Shown piece after piece: positions 1,353 through 36,391 of a DNA stretch of 41,904 bases. The position numbers and the translations under genes are program-made. Position 1 is the first letter of the stretch, and each line of letters starts with the position of its first letter. The notes beneath the pieces were generated by a model. It was not told the origin of the DNA. It ran no database searches and saw nothing but the letters and a program-made list of their open reading frames with translations. Origin of the DNA: Candidatus Thorarchaeota archaeon (lineage in GTDB: Archaea > Asgardarchaeota > Thorarchaeia > Thorarchaeales > Thorarchaeaceae); assembly GCA_004524565.1 (NCBI GenBank), contig SDNZ01000008.1, forward strand, positions 1 to 41,904. The letters run 5' to 3'.

Positions 1353-2189
1353 CTAGGCACCAATCCAGAATACCCTATCATGCATTGCAGCAACTGCAGG
1401 ATTCCATTTCTTTTCGCGCAGAGCATCATCAGCCATCAACGGAACCTTATCATCAATCATGAATGATTCCAAGTCTTGACAGTGATAGAGTGCACTGATA
1501 TCAACAGTACTCATCTGGTTCTCACTTAGATCTAACCAAAGCAGGCTCGAGCACTCCTTCAAGGGTAGTAAATCTACACTAAGCAGACCTGAGTTTCGCA
1601 ACCACAAGCCTTCAATGCTGCGACAACGACTAATAGGTGATAGGTCAATGTTTTCAAAATTATTGTTCTCAAGGAAGAGTTCCTGTAAGTGAGTGCAATG
1701 ACTAAGAGAATCCAAATCCAATCTGATTATTTCATTGCTATCTAACCGCAAGAATCGTAGTAAAGTATTGTAGCTCAATGGGGTAAGATCCACTTCATGA
1801 AGTCTGTTTGATTGAAGATACAATTCCTCAAGTTGCGTGCACTGCGCCAATGGTCGCAGATCAATTCGACTAAGTTTGTTAATCTCAAGAGAGAGGTATG
1901 TCAAATTGGTGCAAGTCGATAACGGGCTAAGAAGAACTGATGATAGTAAATTGGACCCAAGTTTCAGCTTTTCAAGGCTGGGACATTCACCAAGAGGTGC
2001 GAGGTTGAGTGAGCGTAACCAATTACCTGTGAGATTTAAAAAACGCAAATTCTTACATTGTGCAAGTGGCAACAAGTCAATTTCAACAATACTGCGACCA
2101 CTCATATCAAGACCAGTGACAGCATCATTAGTCTCAACGTACATCTCAATGTTATTCTCAATTTTGTAATCGATTTGAATGTCAACCAT
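1353..2189 (-). CDS. Leucine-rich-repeat protein (about nine 23-aa repeats)
   Basis: Repeated [IV]DLxPLxxCxxLxxLxLxxNxLxx units across the ORF. Confidence 0.85.
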   Translation of the reverse strand: MVDIQIDYKIENNIEMYVETNDAVTGLDMSGRSIVEIDLLPLAQCKNLRFLNLTGNWLRSLNLAPLGECPSLEKLKLGSNLLSSVLLSPLSTCTNLTYLSLEINKLSRIDLRPLAQCTQLEELYLQSNRLHEVDLTPLSYNTLLRFLRLDSNEIIRLDLDSLSHCTHLQELFLENNNFENIDLSPISRCRSIEGLWLRNSGLLSVDLLPLKECSSLLWLDLSENQMSTVDISALYHCQDLESFMIDDKVPLMADDALREKKWNPAVAAMHDRVFWIGA

Positions 2190-2285
2190 TGAAGAAACCT
2201 GACCAATATGGAAAATTCGATTTTATTAGTAATTGTGTTATGAATCACTAGCTGAAAATGATGATAAGTTTGAAGTATTTCGCAC

Positions 2286-2984
2286 TTACTTTTCGTGAAT
2301 CCATTGCAATTTGTCTAGTCGTTCCTTCACAGGTTCAGGAAAGTAGGGTTGATGTTTGAGTTTGTAATTTGCTCGGAGTGAAACAGGAGAATCAATAACA
2401 AGTGATTCCAAGTGTTCACAATGGAAAAGAATCGAGATGTCAAGTTCAAAGAGTGAGTTCTCATTTAGGTGAAGATATCGCAAGTCACGTGATTGCTCAA
2501 GAGGAGCTAAGTCAATCTCTTCTAATTGATTTCCTGAAAGAACAATATATTGAAGGTTGGAATGCTCAGTAAATGGAGAGAGATCAATATCTTCGAGATT
2601 ATTATCCGCGATGTATAACCAACGCAGATTCTTGCACTTGCTCAGTGGAGATAAGTCAATGTAACTCAAATGATTATCTGAGAGTTCTAATGCCTGAAGT
2701 AGTCTGCAGTTACCTAAAGGATTCAAATCGATGTATTCTAGCTCATTAGAAGTTATACTAAAGATTTTCAACTTAGAACATCGAGATAAGGGAGTTAAAT
2801 CGAGATTAGAAATTAGATTAGTATCAAGAACAATTTTTTCCAACTGTGTACATTGCCCAATTGGTTCTAGGCTAATTTCCATAATTCCCAAATCTGATAG
2901 ATCGACTTCAGTATGATGATTATCTTTCTCAACTTGATATCGTTCGCCATCTTTGTCAATATACCGTATGGTGAATCTGCTCAC
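2286..2984 (-). CDS. Leucine-rich-repeat protein, tandem paralog of 1353..2189
   Basis: Same 23-aa repeat consensus and similar C-terminal cap (DISILFHCEHLESLVID vs DISALYHCQDLESFMID). Confidence 0.85.
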   Translation of the reverse strand: MSRFTIRYIDKDGERYQVEKDNHHTEVDLSDLGIMEISLEPIGQCTQLEKIVLDTNLISNLDLTPLSRCSKLKIFSITSNELEYIDLNPLGNCRLLQALELSDNHLSYIDLSPLSKCKNLRWLYIADNNLEDIDLSPFTEHSNLQYIVLSGNQLEEIDLAPLEQSRDLRYLHLNENSLFELDISILFHCEHLESLVIDSPVSLRANYKLKHQPYFPEPVKERLDKLQWIHEK

Positions 2985-4265: not shown

Positions 4266-4643
4266 ATGGTAAACGCCGAAGACACAACGGGTCCTGAGAG
4301 AGAGTATGAATATTGGTCTCTCGAGATTAGAAGGGGAGCTCTCTCAATGGCCATTATGGCAATAATCCTGAATGGTGAGTCTTACGGGTATGACATCATG
4401 AAGAAGCTAAACCAAGAGCCATACGAGAGTCTTCAGGTTGAGCCGAGTACAACATATCCTCTTCTCCGCCGACTAGAGAAGAGAGGGATGCTGGAAGGTC
4501 GTTGGTCAACGGGATCAGGAAAAAGGAAACGTCTGTACTATGTTACTCGAGATGGACGTAGAATTCTAAGGAGAATGGTCAAATCATGGCGAAACTTAAA
4601 CGAGCAGTTGACTCAACTTATTACGGAGGCAGGAATCAATTGA
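4266..4643 (+). CDS. PadR family transcriptional regulator
   Basis: ALSMAIMAIILNGESYGYDIMKKLNQEPYESLQVEPSTTYPLLRRLEKRGMLEGRW is the canonical PadR winged HTH; upstream aggagaagg SD-like sequence. Confidence 0.9.
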   Translation: MVNAEDTTGPEREYEYWSLEIRRGALSMAIMAIILNGESYGYDIMKKLNQEPYESLQVEPSTTYPLLRRLEKRGMLEGRWSTGSGKRKRLYYVTRDGRRILRRMVKSWRNLNEQLTQLITEAGIN

Positions 4644-6493
4644 GTGATGATCCTGTAGATATTATCAATCAGTACCTTGCACTTGTGCGGGAGAAATTAC
4701 CCAATTCGATTGCAGATGATGTGATCACAGAGCTTGAAACATATATGCTAGAGACTGCAAGCGACCTCGGGGATAATGGTCAGATTACCTTGGAGTCAGC
4801 AAAGAAGGTTGTTGCTCAGTTTGGAGCACCTAGGGAAGTCGCTGAGGAATATCGTTTCTCCATGCTACCAGAAACAATTTCAGAAGGGGATATCCCGCCA
4901 GAAATCAAACAAGAAATAATTGAAGAACCAGATATCGCCGAACCTGAAAAGCAGATTCCGAAAGTGCAAGGTGTCAATCCTACTACAAGTTATTCAATGT
5001 TCTTCATCAAATCACTTCTTCTCATAATATTCTGGGCATCACTAGCATCCATCATTCCCTTAGTGTTAACTCAATACTGGTTTCAAGGTACACTTTTGAT
5101 TTTTATAATCATACCAGTACTCTGCGTGACAACACTTCTTTTAGCTCAGACATTCTATTTGAAGAGGAAGAAGACCCTCCTCTGGAAACGATCGTATCCG
5201 GATTGGTCGATTTTTCAAACCCTTGTTACATTACCTGAGAACTCTATGCCAGAAGCGGGAACCAAAATTATCCGTCTTGATATTGTAATATCATCTATAG
5301 GGGCTCTTATTTTTGCATCCACAATCTTTCAAGGGAATCACCCATTCGGTTACATAATCGGAATTCCTGCTGCGATACTACTGATTGCACGAATTAAATT
5401 AGCAATCAGGAAATTTGATGAAGACAAAGACCCATATGAAAAATCAAAATTAGAATTTGGAGTCAATCTTTCATTGTTGGTCCTTCTGGATTGGTCAATC
5501 TTTTGGGTGTTTACTACATATGGTTCGTATTATTACTATTCCTTCATTTACATGATGGGGCCATTTATCGCAACATTCGTTGTAATTTTTACACCAGTGC
5601 TATTGTTCCAGTTATTAGTGGGGACCCAAAATCTTTGGTGGAAAACAGAAAAACCATTGATACCAGAGTTGGATGTTACAACTAAGGAAATGGATTCTCC
5701 CAAACGAGAGCTCAAGAAAAGCATCCCATCGAATGGACTGCGTATGTTTGTTGGTATTACAAGCAGATTATTCCTATTCATTTCAATACCTTTCTTAGTA
5801 CGATTATTTCTTCAACCAAATACCGGACGGTTTGATTGGGAGCCCTTACCTAGTTTTGTCTTCATTGCAGTAATTCTTACAGTGATTATAGTTATTGGAT
5901 ATTGTATAGGTCGAGTATTAATGATCCACTTCTATAATTCGTCAACTTTTATTGGTTCTCGAACAAGAGTAGAAGCTATTATTGACTTGGGTATCAGTGG
6001 CGCTCTGTTAGCAGGGATTGTAGCTTGGTCAACATCATTTCGCACGATAAGCATCCTTCAATATCTGACGTCATATACTTCGGAAATATTTGAAGTAAGT
6101 TACAATCTTGGTAGTATTGTTGTTGGATTCTATGTTACAGCAATACTTCTTGCATTCACCGGTTTACCAGTTCGAATAATTGGGAATATTCTTGAATTCT
6201 GGTCCGAACGAAAACACATCGCAGCAATGAGAATCCAAGACTCATCAATAATATTATTCGTATCATTAGCGCTTTTTGCTTCGAATACTTACATCGATTA
6301 CGCTGTTACGGGTAACGCGCATATGATTATTTTCTTCTTTACCATGTATTTTCTAATTGCAGTATACCTCACTTATCAGATGGTTGCTTCAGGGATGAAG
6401 CTCGAAGAGATATCAAAACGAAAAGAGAAATCGATATCAGAAAAGAGTCAGAGGGTTCACTCAATGAACAAAAACGCAACCATGGCGAATTAA
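4640..6493 (+). CDS. HAAS/DUF1700-like domain plus multi-TM membrane protein, translationally coupled to padR
   Basis: Track ORF begins 4586, but TTG at 4640 overlaps the padR stop (TTGA). N-term YLALVREKLPNSIADDVITELETYMLETASDL...AKKVVAQFGAPREVAEEY is HAAS-like, followed by many TM segments. Confidence 0.7.
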   Translation: MSDDPVDIINQYLALVREKLPNSIADDVITELETYMLETASDLGDNGQITLESAKKVVAQFGAPREVAEEYRFSMLPETISEGDIPPEIKQEIIEEPDIAEPEKQIPKVQGVNPTTSYSMFFIKSLLLIIFWASLASIIPLVLTQYWFQGTLLIFIIIPVLCVTTLLLAQTFYLKRKKTLLWKRSYPDWSIFQTLVTLPENSMPEAGTKIIRLDIVISSIGALIFASTIFQGNHPFGYIIGIPAAILLIARIKLAIRKFDEDKDPYEKSKLEFGVNLSLLVLLDWSIFWVFTTYGSYYYYSFIYMMGPFIATFVVIFTPVLLFQLLVGTQNLWWKTEKPLIPELDVTTKEMDSPKRELKKSIPSNGLRMFVGITSRLFLFISIPFLVRLFLQPNTGRFDWEPLPSFVFIAVILTVIIVIGYCIGRVLMIHFYNSSTFIGSRTRVEAIIDLGISGALLAGIVAWSTSFRTISILQYLTSYTSEIFEVSYNLGSIVVGFYVTAILLAFTGLPVRIIGNILEFWSERKHIAAMRIQDSSIILFVSLALFASNTYIDYAVTGNAHMIIFFFTMYFLIAVYLTYQMVASGMKLEEISKRKEKSISEKSQRVHSMNKNATMAN

Positions 6494-6617: not shown

Positions 6618-7541
6618 GTGCAAGACATCGTAGCTATTGCAGCTCTAATGCGAGAGATATCATTTGGTATTCTTCTTGCAGGTCTGTTCTATACATTCGG
6701 AATGTTCTTCTTAGGTAGACTGTTTTCTGCAATCTCTGAGCATGAACATGAAGTGGAACATGATGTCGACCACGACGTAGAGCATGACGTCGACCATGAT
6801 ATGGACCATGAGATCGAGCACTCAATAGAACATGAAGTAGAGCACGATATCGATCACGGAGTAGATCATGATTTTGACCACGAGGTTGAACATGATTATG
6901 AACATGACATTGAGCACGACTTAGACCATCATGTTGAATTGGACCACGATCTTGACCATGATGTTGAGCACGACGTAGAACACGAAGCTGAACATGACGT
7001 AGATCATCATGTCGAGAAAGATTTCGAACATCATGTCGAGGTTGACCATGATATCGAGAAGGACCATTCAGGCTTCTTCGAACTTGACCGTGGGGCTCCT
7101 TTAGGTGTCACTATTGGTACTAGCTTGGTCCTCTTCGGTTTTCTTGGTTCAGTCATTTACTATGAAGGAATTCTCGTACCATTCATTGCGAAGGTGATGT
7201 TCCAGTTTGGAGCAACTATTCTCTTAGTCTGGACCATGCGTACAATTCTCGGAAAAATATTTGTCGAGTCAGGATTCAATATCAAACCTCAACATCTAGT
7301 GGGAATGGAAGTTGAAGCAGTATCGACTATACGTGATGACTTTGGAGAGGTCCGGGCAGAAACAGAGATGGGACTTAGAAGATTCAATGCAAGACCGTTC
7401 CAGAAAGGAATTATCTTTCAACGAGGAACAGATCTCTTTGTTATTTCTGCAGATGAAAAATTCGTTTATGTCGACCCCCGTAAAGAAGCAGTGAAGTGGG
7501 TCCAGAAACAGAGTAAGAGTCCCGAGAAGACTGAAGAGTAA
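6618..7541 (+). CDS. NfeD-like membrane protein with His/Asp/Glu-rich tetrapeptide-repeat insertion
   Basis: TM1, then a 110-aa H-[DE]-x-[DE] repeat, then two TM segments and a C-terminal OB-fold-like domain (LVGMEVEAVSTIRDDFGEVRAE...FQRGTDLFVIS). Followed by an SPFH gene, the usual NfeD partner. GTG start. Confidence 0.75.
   Translation: MQDIVAIAALMREISFGILLAGLFYTFGMFFLGRLFSAISEHEHEVEHDVDHDVEHDVDHDMDHEIEHSIEHEVEHDIDHGVDHDFDHEVEHDYEHDIEHDLDHHVELDHDLDHDVEHDVEHEAEHDVDHHVEKDFEHHVEVDHDIEKDHSGFFELDRGAPLGVTIGTSLVLFGFLGSVIYYEGILVPFIAKVMFQFGATILLVWTMRTILGKIFVESGFNIKPQHLVGMEVEAVSTIRDDFGEVRAETEMGLRRFNARPFQKGIIFQRGTDLFVISADEKFVYVDPRKEAVKWVQKQSKSPEKTEE
6738..7067 (+). repeat. 12-nt-period repeat encoding H-[DE]-hydrophobic-[DE] tetrapeptides (residues 41-150)
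   Basis: HEVEHDVDHDVEHDVDHDMDHEIEHSIEHEVE...; 29 His in 110 residues, 16 of them at exact i,i+4 spacing (residues 44-104). Confidence 0.95.
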
Positions 7542-9204: not shown

Positions 9205-9444
9205 TTATTTGACGCGTTTGATATACCAAATGAGCTTGTCGCCCTCTTCCACGAGTTCAAGTATCTCATTTCCAGTGCGCTCAGCCCAGGATGGAAAATC
9301 CTTCTTGGTTCCAATGTCTGTAGCAATCACACGAAGAATCTGCCCAATCTCAATTGATTGGACTTCTTTCTTTGTTTTCAAGATGGGCATTGGACATCTA
9401 AGTCCACTAGCATCGAACTCTTTCGCAACTTGATGTTCTGTCAT
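9205..9444 (-). CDS. tusA: TusA/SirA-family sulfur carrier protein
   Basis: FDASGLRCPMPILKTKKEVQSIEIGQILRVIATDIGTKKDFPSWAERTGNEIL is a canonical TusA/SirA motif. ORF track extends to 9474; MTEHQV at 9444 is the likelier start. Confidence 0.88.
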   Translation of the reverse strand: MTEHQVAKEFDASGLRCPMPILKTKKEVQSIEIGQILRVIATDIGTKKDFPSWAERTGNEILELVEEGDKLIWYIKRVK

Positions 9445-9626
9445 GGTTGAATCAATTTCTCCCGTTTGATGCACGGTTTTATGGTTTGTGGTTTCGCAAA
9501 TGCTCGAAATTAATCATTCACTACTGCATTTAGTTACAGGTTCTAACCAATCGTGCTGGAAATTGTTCCTTATTCGACATAGTTAAATATTGTTATTTGA
9601 CGTTTTTTATTAATAGGTGTATAATT

Positions 9627-10036: not shown

Positions 10037-10399
10037 ATGGCTAGTCTATATATCGTAGGACAATGGGGTCCAGAAGCAGCTGAACGTTGCTATGGCCCAT
10101 TTGTAACCGGAACAACTGCACAGGCAATCGATGTTGATGTCACAATATTCCTTATGATGGACGCAGTCCAACTCATGAAGAAGGGAATGGCGGAGAAAAT
10201 CATCGCACCAGGGTTCCCACCCTTGCCTGAACTTATTGATTCATTCCTCGAAGCTGGTGGAAAACTTCAGGTTTGCTCCAACTCCGTTGAATTCCGCGGA
10301 ATCAAACAAGAAGACCTTAGAGATTCAAGGATCGAGATTGCTGGCGCAGCCACTATGGTGGATGACGTCCTAAAACACGATCGTACAATGTACTTTTAA
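10037..10399 (+). CDS. DsrE/DsrF-like protein
   Basis: ATIFLMMDAVQLMKKG-type pattern (VTIFLMMDAVQLMKKGMAEK), ...ELIDSFLEAGGKLQVCSNSVEFRGIKQEDL..., characteristic of the DsrE/F-like fold with a conserved Cys. Confidence 0.75.
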   Translation: MASLYIVGQWGPEAAERCYGPFVTGTTAQAIDVDVTIFLMMDAVQLMKKGMAEKIIAPGFPPLPELIDSFLEAGGKLQVCSNSVEFRGIKQEDLRDSRIEIAGAATMVDDVLKHDRTMYF

Positions 10400-10451: not shown

Positions 10452-12230
10452 CTAGAGAAAATCAGGGTAGCACTCTTTCATAGCTAGATTTAGGACTGCG
10501 CTTCGAATAGCTTCATCAGAGATGAATCCCGTTAGTTCGATTTCGCAGATTTTAATAAAGGGTAGCATAGGCAATTCGCCTCGTTCAATTTCTGTAGAGG
10601 GATCATCTACATTTATTGATTCAACAATAGAGCGTGGTACTCCAAGCTCGTCCAGTACTGAGAGTAGAGTATCCATAGCAGGACCACAAAAAACGCAGTG
10701 ATTAGATTTGTAGAAAGTTATGCAAGTATGTCTTCCACAGGGTAGCTCTGCAAGCTCAACCCACATTGGTAACATGATGACGAATTTGGTACCTTGACTG
10801 TAATCATCTTTAATTCTATCCTCTACTTTAATCCGTCCACCAAGACTTCTTACGATTTGCTCAACTAAGGTGAGACCTAGGCCCCTACCAACAATTTGTT
10901 CATCTGGACTACCAGTTCTTCGGAAAATGAACTCCTTGGTTGTGTCAGGTACGCCGCATCCCTTGTCAATAAATTCTAACCGCACCATCTTGAGATTTTG
11001 GACTTGCTCAGCATTGACTTCAATCTCAACATTATCACGCTCGTCAAATGTCATAGAATTGTGAAGGATATTGAAACAGACTTGGTGGAGATATTCATGA
11101 CCGGCTACAAGGAATTTACCTTTCTTAATATTGGTGGAGAGGGACATTTTCTTCCAAGGAAAATCTTGTTCAACTGCAAATTTTGCTATCTGGATGTAAT
11201 CGTGTAAATCTACCTCCTCAATAAGTGGAGGAGTTTCGCGGAGTCGAAGCAATGCACGCATATTGGCAGTCATTCTTCCAGAACGTCTAATGAGCCAATT
11301 TGATTGCTGCATCATCGATTTAACGCGTTCAGGCAGTCCATCTAGTGTTTCAACAAGTCCCAAAGAGAAAAGCAGACTCTGATTGATGTTATTAAGATCG
11401 TGAGTCATCACTTCAAGGTAAAGATTAGCACGGTCTCGCTCATTGTGCTCTCTTGATTCTGCATTCTTTCTTCTATCAATATCTAGTGCCATAAGAGCGA
11501 TGGTTGAAGATTGATCAGGATATTCAAGCAAACTCGCTCTAACACTGACCCAAATAGGTCGTCCATCAGCCTTCTGAAATTGCATCTCGAAGGCTTCTAG
11601 GCTCTTGCCTTGTGAAACTTCAGAAACTACCATACGAACTATTTCACCCTTATTTTCACCTGAAATAAAAGTGGCAAGGTTGCGTCGCAGGATTGAATCT
11701 TCGCTATATCCGAGTAGACGTTCTGCAGCCTTGTTTATTTGCAGGATGTTCCCACTCATGCTCAATGTAAAGTATGCTATTGGTGAAGAATCGAATAAAG
11801 CTCTATATCGACTCTCAGAAAGATCTATAGCTTCCTCCAACTCAATTTGTGAAGTTATATCCCTTACAATACCTAGAGTTGCTGGCAATCCCTCTAAGAC
11901 AAAATAGGAAGTGCTTATCTCTACGTTCAATATTGAACCATTCTTTGTTAGCAGGCACGCACGAAAACTTGGATTCTGCAGTTCTCCCCAGTGAAGAGAT
12001 TCTTGTCCTTCTTCATAGTAGTGAGCTGTAGTTGTGTCAAGGATGACATCCACAGATTCTCCAAGTAAGTCATATGCATTATCGTAACCAAGCATCAGAA
12101 GGAGTGCAGGATTGACAAGAACCAAGTTATTTTCTTGAATGACCATGATACCATCATTTGCCATCATAATCATGTCTTGAAACCGATTATGCTCATCTGG
12201 TTCAGGTTTACTCTTTCTCTGGTCCTGCAA
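10452..12230 (-). CDS. PAS-PAS histidine kinase with C-terminal thioredoxin/glutaredoxin-like domain
   Basis: Two PAS domains; H-box MTHDLNNINQS (His codon 11400-11402); N-box NILHNS; G-boxes DKGCGVPD and GRGLGLTLVEQI; C-terminal 90 aa FYKSNHCVFCGPAMDTL...LPMLPFI with CxxC and cis-Pro-like motif. Confidence 0.85.
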   Translation of the reverse strand: MQDQRKSKPEPDEHNRFQDMIMMANDGIMVIQENNLVLVNPALLLMLGYDNAYDLLGESVDVILDTTTAHYYEEGQESLHWGELQNPSFRACLLTKNGSILNVEISTSYFVLEGLPATLGIVRDITSQIELEEAIDLSESRYRALFDSSPIAYFTLSMSGNILQINKAAERLLGYSEDSILRRNLATFISGENKGEIVRMVVSEVSQGKSLEAFEMQFQKADGRPIWVSVRASLLEYPDQSSTIALMALDIDRRKNAESREHNERDRANLYLEVMTHDLNNINQSLLFSLGLVETLDGLPERVKSMMQQSNWLIRRSGRMTANMRALLRLRETPPLIEEVDLHDYIQIAKFAVEQDFPWKKMSLSTNIKKGKFLVAGHEYLHQVCFNILHNSMTFDERDNVEIEVNAEQVQNLKMVRLEFIDKGCGVPDTTKEFIFRRTGSPDEQIVGRGLGLTLVEQIVRSLGGRIKVEDRIKDDYSQGTKFVIMLPMWVELAELPCGRHTCITFYKSNHCVFCGPAMDTLLSVLDELGVPRSIVESINVDDPSTEIERGELPMLPFIKICEIELTGFISDEAIRSAVLNLAMKECYPDFL

Positions 12231-12379: not shown

Positions 12380-12411
12380 ACATTCAAACAATCGTAAGAA
12401 CGTTTGAATGT
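12380..12411 (+). promoter_or_regulatory. ArsR/SmtB-type operator
   Basis: acattcaaac-aatcgtaagaac-gtttgaatgt perfect 10-bp arms with 12-nt spacer, downstream of a TATA-like ctttta (12361-12366). Confidence 0.75.
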
Positions 12412-12433
12412 GATGAATTGTATGAGGACACAG

Positions 12434-12748
12434 ATGAGTATAGCGCAAAGAAAGGTAAAATTCAGGAGAAATGAGATAGAGGATATAGTGACCATGTTCA
12501 AAGCGCTTGGAGACCCGTCAAGAGTCAAGATTATTGCAGTACTAACCAGGGAACCAAAACTTTGTGTATCAGACATTGGTGAACGATTAGACATGTCAAC
12601 GAGCAGAGTTAGTCATCACCTCAAATTGCTTGAGCACCTGGGATTTGTGAAGCATGAGCAGATAGGAAAGAAAGTCTATCATCGGATAGAAGACGATTGC
12701 ATCGTCGATATAATGACAAGGGCGCAAGAACATGTTAGAGGAAAGTGA
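12434..12748 (+). CDS. ArsR/SmtB-family metalloregulator
   Basis: MFKALGDPSRVKIIAVLTREPKLCVSDIGERLDMSTSRVSHHLKLLEHLGFVKHEQIGKKVYHRI. Track start 12404 (TTG) lies inside the operator; ATG 12434 or 12422 is likelier. Confidence 0.88.
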   Translation: MSIAQRKVKFRRNEIEDIVTMFKALGDPSRVKIIAVLTREPKLCVSDIGERLDMSTSRVSHHLKLLEHLGFVKHEQIGKKVYHRIEDDCIVDIMTRAQEHVRGK

Positions 12749-14642
12749 AGTTAACTGTGCCACTTGTGGATCGCCAGCTACGATCCAAAACGATACAGCA
12801 AGTCGTCTGAAACTTGCAACTGGAATCTTCTCAGGAATTATGCTCTCACTAGGTATAGTTTTAGAATTATTACAGGTAGGAGTAATCCTAGTCTATGTTG
12901 TATTCCTCTCATCTGCACTTTCTGCAGGAAGATATGTAATCCCGATGGGAGTACGGGGACTTCTACGCCGCAGGCTTGACCAACATTTCCTTATGGCGTC
13001 TGCCTCAATTGGAGCGATGATAATTGGTGCTCCTGCTGAAGGTGCCGCAGTTATGTTCCTCTTCTTCATTTCCATTCTTCTTGAAGAGAGAGCAGAAGAT
13101 AGAGTCAGAAAAGAGATTCAATCATTAATTGAGTTAGAACCCCCTTCTGTAGTGGTTAAAATCGATGGAGCAGAAGCTTGTGTGGCATCAACAGATGTTA
13201 GGATTGGTGATATCCTGGTTGTTCGACCAGGCACAAGAATCGGGCTTGATGGCATTATCCTTACTGGAGCAACTACGGTGAACCAAGCACCTATCACCGG
13301 TGAATCACTGCCAGTTCCAAAATCAGCAGGAGATGAAGTATTTGCAGGGACAATCAATCATGAAGGTTACATTGAAGTCGAAGTAACTAGCAAATCTGAT
13401 GAAACTGTTCTTTCGAAAATCATACACCTAGTAGAGGAATCACGAAAGAAACGAGCTCCCACCGAACTGGCTATATCAAAATTTTCTAGAGTATATACAC
13501 CGATTGTACTAACATTATCGATTCTCGTTGGTTTGGTATCACTACTCCTCAATATGACAATCAATGAAGCAGCCTACCGAGCACTTACTCTTCTTGTGGT
13601 GAGTTGTCCTTGTGCTTTTGCAGTGTCCATTCCTGTAACTATGGTTTCAGCAATAGCAGGCTCAGCTAGAACAGGAGTCCTTGTTAAGGGAGCTATCTAC
13701 TTAGAAAAGGCAAGCAAGACAGAAATTGTTGCATTTGATAAGACAGGGACATTGACACAAGGAGTCCTTTCTGTTAAAGAGGTCTGTCTTCACAATAATC
13801 ATACTCGAAGCGAGATTCTATCTGTTGCAGCTTCTTTGGAGACCATGTCTGAACATCCTATTGGACGTGCTCTTGTCGCAGCATCAAGTCAAGAGTCCTT
13901 GCTTGTTCCATCACCCTCTGACTTCACTGCGATTCCTGGAAGAGGTGTCACTGGTCAAATTGAAAATACAGAATATCTGGTTGGAAATCGCAGATTATTA
14001 ACAGAAAATCATGTACCACTTCAATCTACAGCAGATCATAGTTGTGGAGCAGGAACGATGGTGTATGTTGCTCAGGAAGATGAGCACTTCGGAACTATCA
14101 TTCTATCTGATACACTAAGAGAGAAGACCAAGCTTGCAATTTCAAAGCTCAGAATGATGGGTATTCGGACCGTAATGCTCACAGGAGACGATGATAATGT
14201 TGCAAGAGAGATTGCAGAAGAAATTTGTATTGACGAATATAGAGCAGAACTTCTCCCTCATGAAAAACAAGAAGTCGTTAGGGAATTGAAAGAATCTGGT
14301 GTTACCATCTTTGTAGGAGATGGTATCAATGATACTCCTGCTTTGGTTGAAGCAGATGTGGGCGTCTCCATGGGAGCAGCAGCATCAGATGTTGCACTTG
14401 AGTCCTCAGATATAGCTCTGATGAAACAGGACCTGACCAAAGTACCTGAGCTAATCTTGAAGGCAAGGAAGACAATGAGGGTAGTGCGCCAGAATGTAGC
14501 GGCTTCATTGATCGTCAAGGCGATTACTGGTGTATTAGCAGGTCTTGGATTCTTGACCCTATGGATGGCGATTGGAATCGGAGATATGGGTTTGACGTTT
14601 GCGGTGATTGCAAATGCCCTGAGACTAGCTCGAAAGATGTAA
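12732..14642 (+). CDS. P1B-type heavy-metal ATPase, probably Zn/Cd/Pb class (ZntA/CadA-like)
   Basis: CPC motif (VSCPCAFAVS), DKTGTLT, SEHPIG, GDGINDTPAL; C-terminal IGDMGLTFAVIANALRL resembles the ZntA-type DxG motif. N-term has CATC instead of a full HMA domain. Overlaps arsR by 17 nt. Confidence 0.9.
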   Translation: MLEESEVNCATCGSPATIQNDTASRLKLATGIFSGIMLSLGIVLELLQVGVILVYVVFLSSALSAGRYVIPMGVRGLLRRRLDQHFLMASASIGAMIIGAPAEGAAVMFLFFISILLEERAEDRVRKEIQSLIELEPPSVVVKIDGAEACVASTDVRIGDILVVRPGTRIGLDGIILTGATTVNQAPITGESLPVPKSAGDEVFAGTINHEGYIEVEVTSKSDETVLSKIIHLVEESRKKRAPTELAISKFSRVYTPIVLTLSILVGLVSLLLNMTINEAAYRALTLLVVSCPCAFAVSIPVTMVSAIAGSARTGVLVKGAIYLEKASKTEIVAFDKTGTLTQGVLSVKEVCLHNNHTRSEILSVAASLETMSEHPIGRALVAASSQESLLVPSPSDFTAIPGRGVTGQIENTEYLVGNRRLLTENHVPLQSTADHSCGAGTMVYVAQEDEHFGTIILSDTLREKTKLAISKLRMMGIRTVMLTGDDDNVAREIAEEICIDEYRAELLPHEKQEVVRELKESGVTIFVGDGINDTPALVEADVGVSMGAAASDVALESSDIALMKQDLTKVPELILKARKTMRVVRQNVAASLIVKAITGVLAGLGFLTLWMAIGIGDMGLTFAVIANALRLARKM

Positions 14643-30420: not shown

Positions 30421-32154
30421 CTAACCTCCTGACATGAATATCATTTTGGAAACAGCTTCACGAAGATCATCCTCTGATAGGAATCCAGAGAGTTGGTCCA
30501 TTCCCATTTGGATTGTAGGTAATGCGGGTAGTTCTTCCTCTGCAATTATCGATTCGGGCTCATCTACATTAATGACATGAATTGCTGATGCTCCGATTCC
30601 AAGCTCATTCAGAACAGATTTGAGAGTAACAAGAACAGGACCACAGAAAATACAGTGGTCTGATTTATAGTACATGATTGGTGGTAGCTGAAGAGCTTCT
30701 TTCCAAAGTGGAAGCAAGATTACAAATTTGCTCCCCTTGGATGAATCATTGGAAACTCTATCTTCAACCCAGATTCGCCCACCCAAATCAGAGATATAGC
30801 GATCAGCAACTGTTAGACCTAGACCCTTACCTTCCAGTTTATCGTCAGCACTTCCTTCTCTCCTGAATATCTGAGATTTTTGATCATCAGGGATGCCTGG
30901 ACCGAAGTCTAAGAACTCTATCCGAAGCATATCATCAGTTTCGGTCATTTCAGCATTGATTTCTAGTCTGACTTTATCACTAACGTCTGAACGTCCACTA
31001 AAATGAATGATATTGAAGAAGATATACCACATAAAGGCATGACCGTTTACTTCGTAGGAAATATCAGCGATGTTAGATTTAACATCAAGAGTCTTCCATT
31101 CAAAGTCTCTAGTTGCTTCGCGAATCGCTTTGTTAAAATGGGGAAGCAACTTAGTCTGTGTCTTCACAGGTGGTTCATGGTGAAGGGACATTAAGACACC
31201 CATATTTGCAATCATTCTCGCTGCATTTCGAAGACTCCATGAAGCTTCACTTAGGAGAACTTGAAGGCGCTCAGGAAGTTCTAAGGATATACTTAGATCC
31301 TCTAAAGCAAAAATGACATTTTGGTTGGTCATATTCAAGTCACTTGTCATGACCTCCATGTACAAATTGGCACGTTCACTCTCAGCCATGAGCTTCTGTT
31401 CCATTGCACGTCGACGAGTTATGTCTATCGCAGTGAATCCGATGCTTACGGGTCTCTCAGGTCCGGAATCTAATGCCCTTGATGAAGCACTAATCCAGAT
31501 TGTCTTATTATTTCCACAAAACATCTCCATTTCGAGACCTTTTACACTCTTACCACGCAAGACTTCTCTAACAATCTCAGCAGCAGGATCGTATCCGGGT
31601 TTAGGCTCAGGAAGGAATTGAGAAATTGGTTTACCTATTAGTTCTTCAGCTTCAATACCTAGAAGCTCTTCTGCTGCAGCGTTTACCTGTTCTATAGAAC
31701 CGTTTTTACTAAGCATAAAGTACGCTACTGGAGACATATCGTAAAGCGTAGCAAATCTATTTTCGAGTTCAGTTACTGTGGTTTCCAGAGTTACTTGTGT
31801 GGATACATTTCGTACACACGCAAGAATTGCAGATGCTCCATCGAATGTCACTGAAGTTGGTTTAATCTCAACATGAACAATCTGTCCATTCTTCGATACA
31901 AGCCGGGTGGGAAACTGTGACATAATTTCACCGGAGTAGAGTTTTTCAAAGAGATCGCTGTCTCGTCTCCGGGTTTGAGGTTCAACAACATCCTCTAATG
32001 CAATATCAAGTACATCGTCAATTGGGTATCCAAGCATATCAGAAAATACTTCGTTAGCCATCACGATATCTTCGTCCTGAATAACAATCCTACCATCATG
32101 AACTACTTCCATAACTTTCTGAATCCACTGGGTATCTTGAGTTGCATCTGACAT
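30421..32154 (-). CDS. PAS-PAS HATPase protein with C-terminal thioredoxin-like domain; predicted pseudo-histidine-kinase
   Basis: Paralog of 10452..12230; H-box MTSDLNMTNQ (Ser at 31342-31344), N-box NIIHFS, DFGPGIPD and GKGLGLTVADRYI retained; C-term YYKSDHCIFCGP...LPALPTI. Confidence 0.85.
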   Translation of the reverse strand: MSDATQDTQWIQKVMEVVHDGRIVIQDEDIVMANEVFSDMLGYPIDDVLDIALEDVVEPQTRRRDSDLFEKLYSGEIMSQFPTRLVSKNGQIVHVEIKPTSVTFDGASAILACVRNVSTQVTLETTVTELENRFATLYDMSPVAYFMLSKNGSIEQVNAAAEELLGIEAEELIGKPISQFLPEPKPGYDPAAEIVREVLRGKSVKGLEMEMFCGNNKTIWISASSRALDSGPERPVSIGFTAIDITRRRAMEQKLMAESERANLYMEVMTSDLNMTNQNVIFALEDLSISLELPERLQVLLSEASWSLRNAARMIANMGVLMSLHHEPPVKTQTKLLPHFNKAIREATRDFEWKTLDVKSNIADISYEVNGHAFMWYIFFNIIHFSGRSDVSDKVRLEINAEMTETDDMLRIEFLDFGPGIPDDQKSQIFRREGSADDKLEGKGLGLTVADRYISDLGGRIWVEDRVSNDSSKGSKFVILLPLWKEALQLPPIMYYKSDHCIFCGPVLVTLKSVLNELGIGASAIHVINVDEPESIIAEEELPALPTIQMGMDQLSGFLSEDDLREAVSKMIFMSGG

Positions 32155-35833: not shown

Positions 35834-36391
35834 CTAGTATCTACGACGTCTGTCGCCGCCACCACCGCGGTCTCTGCCACCGCCACCATAGCCACCGCCA
35901 CCACGGTCTCTGCCACCATAGCCACCGCCACCACCGTAGCCACCACCACCGCGGTCTCTACCGCCGCCACCATAGCCACCGCCACCGCCACCGTAACGTC
36001 GTCGGGGGCGATCATCTTCGTGCTCTTCAGCTGACATATCTACTTCCATGTTTACTTCTTCAATAGCTTCCTCAGCTTCAGCTAGCTCACCGTACTTACC
36101 TACATTCAAACGTAGATTCCCTCGAAAGAGACCTGTGTATCCGTTCTTCAAGAGGTATGTTGAACCTGCTGCGACTGCATCGATAGTATCATCCCAGAGA
36201 GGAACCTGTACAATTCCAGTTGAATCACCCACCGTGATATCTGCGACTCGGTGTGTGCTGCCATCTCCTCGGGAAGTAACTTCGCGTTCTTCGCCTATTT
36301 CGACTACTTTGAAGGTGATTGTAATATTCTTCATTCGTGGCTTAAGTTCTGCCACAGTTGCTTCTATTGGTTCTCGTTCTTGATAACCCAT
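35834..36391 (-). CDS. OB-fold single-stranded DNA-binding protein (archaeal SSB/SOSS-B-like) with RG/Y-rich tail
   Basis: N-terminal ITITFKVVEIGEEREVTSRGDGSTHRVADITVGDSTGIVQVPLWDDTI...YLLKNGYTGLFRGNLRLNVGKYGEL; C-terminal 58 aa of YGGGG/RDRGGGG repeats. Confidence 0.85.
   Translation of the reverse strand: MGYQEREPIEATVAELKPRMKNITITFKVVEIGEEREVTSRGDGSTHRVADITVGDSTGIVQVPLWDDTIDAVAAGSTYLLKNGYTGLFRGNLRLNVGKYGELAEAEEAIEEVNMEVDMSAEEHEDDRPRRRYGGGGGGYGGGGRDRGGGGYGGGGGYGGRDRGGGGYGGGGRDRGGGGDRRRRY
35837..36010 (-). repeat. Gly/Arg/Tyr-rich low-complexity tail repeats of SSB
   Basis: RPRRRYGGGGGGYGGGGRDRGGGGYGGGGGYGGRDRGGGGYGGGGRDRGGGGDRRRRY. Confidence 0.95.

Follow-up and report, generated by a model that had tools for sequence, protein, structure and literature searches.

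A histidine- and acid-rich repeat loop in an NfeD/YqiJ-like flotillin partner of Thorarchaeota

The window, by which we mean the whole 41,904-nt stretch of a Candidatus Thorarchaeota contig that was analysed, carries a gene for an NfeD-like membrane protein with a long run of histidine and acidic residues between its first and second transmembrane (TM) helices. The features of the locus are collected in Table 1. The assigned start agrees with that of the orthologues, which begin with M/V-Q at the same point, and the three hydrophobic segments N-terminal of the OB fold are conserved in 18 orthologues. The overall layout of the protein is TM1, variable loop, TM2, TM3 and OB fold, with TM2 carrying the family signature GAPLGVTIGTSLVxFGFxGSVxYY. 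Structure models were built with only one orthologue added to the input and reached mean pLDDT values of 45 and 53; in the C-terminal model, the TM2-TM3 helix is mostly at pLDDT 80-90.

Table 1. Features of the NfeD-like gene, its protein domains and the adjoining genes, with positions in the window
Feature	Position	Strand	Evidence
Three-TM membrane protein, NfeD superfamily (YqiJ-type), 307 aa, GTG start	6618..7541	+	ORF, orthologue starts, profile matches
TM1, about residues 14-37	6657..6728	+	Hydrophobic stretch kept in orthologues; helix 2-48 in low-confidence model
His/acid repeat loop, residues 41-150	6738..7067	+	29 His, 50 acid, 2 Lys; H-[DE]-phi-[DE] units
TM2, about residues 160-182	7095..7163	+	Conserved columns; helix 14-69 of C-terminal model spans TM2 and TM3
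TM3, about residues 187-210	7176..7247	+	Conserved columns; helix of C-terminal model
NfeD-type OB-fold domain, about residues 224-288	7287..7481	+	Asgard-wide profile A3 aligns to 3cp0 and to 2k14 (YuaF)
SPFH/flotillin-like protein, 444 aa	7789..9123	+	Band_7 PF01145, E 4.9e-24; constant downstream partner
PadR-type regulator	4266..4643	+	PF03551, E 9e-17; possibly same gene cluster
HAAS-domain multi-TM protein	4586..6493	+	HAAS PF22564, E 6e-6, 26.9 bits vs cut-off 27; possibly same cluster

An Asgard-wide profile of the TM2-TM3-OB region (A3) matched the NfeD C-terminal domain (PDB 3cp0) at E 2.9e-6, which bears out the NfeD-like identity put forward in the original prediction, and YuaF (2k14) at E 0.017. 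The hhalign comparison with a YqiJ-type alignment gave a probability of 97.9 and E 5.4e-13 over 134 columns, a modest margin above the classical NfeDs (probability 96.9, E 1.7e-10). Pfam and NCBIfam scans of the window protein as a single sequence returned no meaningful domain match, no match was obtained at the gathering cut-offs of Pfam YqiJ_N and YqiJ_OB, and single-sequence hhalign against E. coli YqiJ reached a probability of 13. Pfam NfeD (PF01957) stayed under its cut-off, with 4 of 12 members matching weakly (best E 0.0037). A hit to the MSCRAMM SdrC/ClfA adhesin model of NCBIfam (24 bits vs a cut-off of 1700) matched the low-complexity repeat only and was discarded. By these profile comparisons, the window protein is a member of the NfeD superfamily, and the YqiJ (DUF1449) type is the one nearest to it. 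YuaF and YqiJ were treated as divergent NfeD homologues in a 2009 survey of SPFH operons (PMC2636767). YqiJ/DUF1449 proteins (PF21001 YqiJ_N plus PF07290 YqiJ_OB; partners of the flotillin YqiK) share the TM1-loop-TM2-TM3-OB layout, the TM2 signature and a flotillin gene directly downstream, whereas E. coli YqiJ is without the long acidic/His repeat. NfeD, YuaF and YbbJ (PF01957; partners of FloA, FloT and QmcA) likewise carry a C-terminal OB fold on two TM helices and adjoin an SPFH gene, but no acid/His loop was flagged in the 30 PF01957 loci scanned.

The proposed link to a flotillin also stood up: the SPFH gene lies directly downstream of the NfeD-like gene here and in the Asgard loci inspected. 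In 59 relatives searched for both genes, those without the NfeD gene were generally without the close flotillin too. Upstream, the PadR-type regulator overlaps the HAAS-domain protein (4266-6493 together); a PadR-type gene was observed upstream in seven orthologous loci and is missing from others. The HAAS-PadR pair has been described as a membrane-stress signalling dyad in a study that also covers YqiJ/YuaF-flotillin operons (PMC11237479).

Residues 41-150 of the ORF map exactly to 6738-7067, and the predicted 110-residue segment with 29 His between TM1 and TM2 was re-derived there, the remaining charged residues being 27 Asp, 23 Glu and 2 Lys, with 0 Arg. The count of 16 His at exact i,i+4 spacing was reproduced as the longest such run. 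From His44, 15 tetrapeptide units follow without interruption, as had been stated, but the further claim that all are H-[DE]-hydrophobic-[DE] does not hold: 13 of the 15 fit a strict H-[DE]-x-[DE], and HSIE and HGVD have no acid at position 2. Shuffled 5000 times with its composition preserved, the loop never regained the observed periodicity: it contains 20 H[DE]x[DE] units, whereas the shuffles average 5.8. A sharper regularity, not mentioned in the original prediction, is that every one of the 50 acidic residues sits on the same parity (i,i+2), for which the shuffle average is 54%; the non-acid positions have His alternating with Val/Ile/Leu. The repeat is thereby confirmed as real and beyond chance. 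Within its own genome, the triple-unit pattern is confined to this gene. With a net charge of about -0.4 per residue and a mean hydropathy of 0.31-0.36, well under the charge-hydropathy disorder boundary of ~0.56, the loops are predicted to be disordered, and a low-confidence model gives coil for residues 49-150 (pLDDT about 36-51).

To establish how widely the gene is kept, the C-terminal profile was searched against 232 whole genomes of the window's phylum. It was found in 37 of them, including 22 from the window's Thorarchaeota family, and in all 22 the repeat loop is retained. Homologues lacking the repeat, named in the original prediction as evidence that would count against it, were searched for, and none was found among the orthologues. 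Meanwhile, the repeat number drifts: loop length ranges from 61 to 133 aa and His content from 12 to 34 in the 19 family members measured. In the orthologues, 269 positions are flanked by His on both sides at a distance of four residues, and 244 of these are themselves His, encoded by CAT (159) or CAC (85). Replacements reachable by a single transition were two Tyr and no Arg. At His and acid positions across the loops, nonsynonymous change is far rarer than synonymous change, and His is retained by strong purifying selection in the Thorarchaeota family. Third-position identity between same-residue codons one unit apart, summed over orthologues, was 0.470 vs 0.507 after synonymous shuffling; since it is not above the shuffled value, the array is old and kept at the protein level, and recent DNA slippage was rejected. 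An assembly artefact was rejected as well, on the codon statistics and on conservation of the repeat in independently assembled genomes. As a separate observation, one genome (G020) carries, besides the repeat version, a paralogue without the repeat loop (L022:1294-1953) that is 37% identical over TM2-OB.

Loops at the same position were then found well outside the Thorarchaeota family. In one Asgard locus (L073) the position is occupied by HDFDHDLDHDVD, and in another (L074) by a mixed His/acid loop. Four loci (L021, L075, L078 and L079) have His-free DVDIDADVD loops there, and two (L076 and L077) have period-3 HIDHVDHLD loops, such that other Asgard families show 2-, 3- or 4-residue versions with or without His. 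The L077 genome encodes two tandem YqiJ/NfeD-like paralogues (positions 1084 and 2246, reverse-complement strand), one with a His-free DxDx loop and the other with HxD at period 3, which makes them a natural test pair for the contribution of His.

Bacterial YqiJ-type proteins with an acidic loop were first found in two loci (L232 and L233), and an alignment of YqiJ-type proteins (A6) was used to search bacterial genomes. Members were found in 34/151 genomes of Planctomycetota, 7/151 of Chloroflexota, 89/284 of Myxococcota and 2/150 of Bacillota. The bacterial loops are 27-115 aa long. At least 30% D/E/H was observed in 44 of 76 (some genes are entered twice, with different locus ids, which makes the independent number somewhat lower), and 22 of these 44 have at least three His. 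The D/E/H-rich loops together contain 712 acids vs 10 Lys/Arg, with 84% of the acid on one parity. Since the A6 profile includes loop columns and favours loop-bearing members, these proportions are biased, but the flotillin found within the fetched stretch in 64 of 67 newly fetched loci gives independent support. A planctomycetotal example (L275; GADVDHDVDHDIDHDADHDADHDAD...) has essentially the Thorarchaeota grammar of HDxD units, which also occur in L287 and L319. The acidic (phi-D)n loops of YqiJ-type proteins from Myxococcota, Planctomycetota and Chloroflexota resemble the window loop in position, alternating acid and flotillin neighbour, but are mostly 28-80 aa and often His-free, whereas the Thorarchaeota loop is His-rich; it is also longer and more His-rich than most YqiJ-type loops.

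The novelty originally seen in the insert is therefore not upheld, since other Asgard families have comparable loops, as do many YqiJ-type partners of bacterial flotillins. What looked like an oddity of one archaeal contig recurs in several phyla. By sequence comparison, the window loop is the variable TM1-TM2 loop of the YqiJ-type class. What these loops have in common is acid at alternate residues and a near absence of Lys/Arg; His is optional. Searches of the open-access literature on NfeD, YqiJ, DUF1449 and Asgard flotillins turned up no description of the loop; the family is known, while the loop class and its His-rich form are apparently undescribed. In a GTDB-wide scan for (H[DE]x[DE])5, a pattern that does not require a hydrophobic third residue, most of the matches listed were poly(HD)/(HE) stretches, and the proteins that carry such H[DE]-rich runs look largely, as read by eye from sequence, like metal-handling proteins, for example of the CobW/G3E, ZnuA, HypB and CDF types.

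These observations suggest that the loop is probably a charged, perhaps metal-binding, working part of the protein rather than an accident of sequence. The reading we prefer, to which we give about even credence, is a disordered, probably cytosolic, polyanionic cation-binding loop on a flotillin scaffold; where it is His-rich, the loop would be tuned to transition metals. Our confidence is high for the anatomy and conservation, moderate for cation binding and low for a detailed switch. The OB domain of NfeD is cytosolic (PMC11222466), and with three TM helices this would put the loop on the cytosolic side, together with the OB fold and the SPFH domain; the positive-inside signal for topology is weak. 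In the SPFH-NfeD complex QmcA-YbbJ there are 26 copies of QmcA (PMC12624060), so an oligomeric assembly of this kind may crowd tens of loop copies at the membrane. Held there, the loops would form a multivalent cation-binding brush in which divalent metals are loosely bound and buffered beside the membrane. The His-rich version would favour Zn, Ni, Co, Cu or Fe, and the Asp-only versions Ca, Mg or Mn. Bound metals could screen or condense the loops and in doing so alter the packing of the flotillin scaffold. Multivalent cation binding, with His added for transition metals, would be the most economical role, and the support for it is indirect: ligand composition, the selection on His, the apparent metal proteins of the H[DE] scan and parallels with metal proteins.

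Among those parallels, Zn transporters have cytosolic His-rich loops to which Zn is recruited (PMC10932157). Like the loop described here, those of ZnT/CDF and COG0523/HypB proteins are flexible, variable in length and present or absent among homologues (PMC10932157, PMC2770081); they sit on transporters or GTPases, however, whereas the window loop sits on a scaffold partner with no known catalytic or transport function. A metal role would tie flotillin scaffolds to metal homeostasis, a connection for which there is one published knock-out phenotype: in Shewanella, deletion of the flotillin SO1377, whose gene shares an operon with that of a DUF1449 protein, lowered free iron threefold and left total iron unchanged (PMC1468410). 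Published phenotypes of DUF1449 proteins concern short members (Shewanella SO1376, of about 212 aa, and E. coli YqiJ), and the loss of free iron can thus not be put down to a loop of this kind.

The main rival is a generic polyanionic disordered brush of no metal specificity, which would space SPFH-NfeD subunits, keep the scaffold soluble, or hold unfolded basic or hydrophobic clients near the membrane. We regard it as possible, if on the whole unlikely. The universal feature of the homologues is alternating acid with almost no Lys/Arg rather than His, and several related loops are entirely His-free, which means that His cannot be essential to the common function of the family. FloA-NfeD stabilises unfolded proteins at microdomains in Staphylococcus (PMC11222466), and the nearby PadR-HAAS pair and the YqiJ-flotillin operons are tied to membrane-stress systems (PMC11237479). 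Charge alone, however, does not explain why purifying selection has so strongly preserved His in the Thorarchaeota family, or why in-register His recurs in distant lineages (L073, L275, L287 and L319). The composition of His and acid would also suit a pH sensor or proton buffer, in which ~29 His, once protonated near pH 6-7, would bring the loop from a net charge of about -48 to one of about -19, with a switch in conformation; an alternation of acid, His and hydrophobic residues would be expected to collapse or turn to beta structure once neutralised. We judge this improbable, as the Asp-only relatives have no groups titrating near neutral pH and pH-related gene context was not found. Still less probable is a functionless low-complexity expansion tolerated in a freely variable TM1-TM2 loop. 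Orthologue loop length does vary (61-133 aa), the period differs between families and the repeat-less paralogue exists, but the loop is kept in 22/22 orthologues, synonymous change greatly outnumbers nonsynonymous change at its His and acid positions, recent duplication of DNA has left no trace in the codons, and the same grammar recurs beside flotillins in other phyla; the codon pattern largely refutes it. The alpha-helical rod with a continuous His stripe that was originally pictured, for which i,i+4 His pairs as a known two-ligand motif on helices would speak, is scarcely credible: periods of 2 and 3 (L075-L079, L021) as well as 4 among related loops, with acid every second residue as the constant, argue against a fixed stripe, each 4-residue unit of an alpha helix would be turned by 40 degrees relative to the last, like-charged acids make up half of the residues and are separated by beta-branched Val/Ile, and the low-confidence model has coil in place of helix over most of the loop.

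Returning to the cation-binding loop, a broader version of that reading can be put forward tentatively, as something we think rather doubtful at present. The alternating-acid loops of many archaeal and bacterial YqiJ-type partners might sense or buffer divalent metals, with His, as in the Thorarchaeota, changing the metal preference; on binding metal, a self-repelling coil might collapse into a condensed, beta-like form, and this switch would govern the assembly of microdomains. The role of the NfeD/YqiJ protein is a long-standing gap in flotillin biology, and a charged, recurrent loop offers a concrete handle on it.

Other genes of the window were noticed as well. At 12404-14642, ~3.3 kb downstream of the flotillin gene, an ArsR/SmtB metalloregulator (83 bits) overlaps a heavy-metal P-type ATPase (TIGR01525, 548 bits), which is above the cut-off of the cadmium subfamily TIGR01512 too. 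Synteny of this pair is kept in many close relatives. It was set aside as support for a metal operon, being part of a larger conserved Thorarchaeota block that more distant loci lack. Two related PAS sensor kinases, at 10452-12230 (-) and 30421-32154 (-), share a C-terminal CxxC (CVFCGP/CIFCGP) thioredoxin-like segment, and one of them lies near TusA and DsrE-like sulfur-carrier genes (9205-9474 and 10037-10399). A 185-aa protein at 35834-36391 (-) combines an apparent OB fold (single-stranded nucleic-acid-binding type) with a long Gly-rich tail (RDRGGGGYGG), which accounts for the tandem repeats at 35854-35992. Finally, two leucine-rich-repeat proteins are encoded side by side at 1353-2984 (-); their repeat, xxIDLxPLxxCxxL, is very regular.
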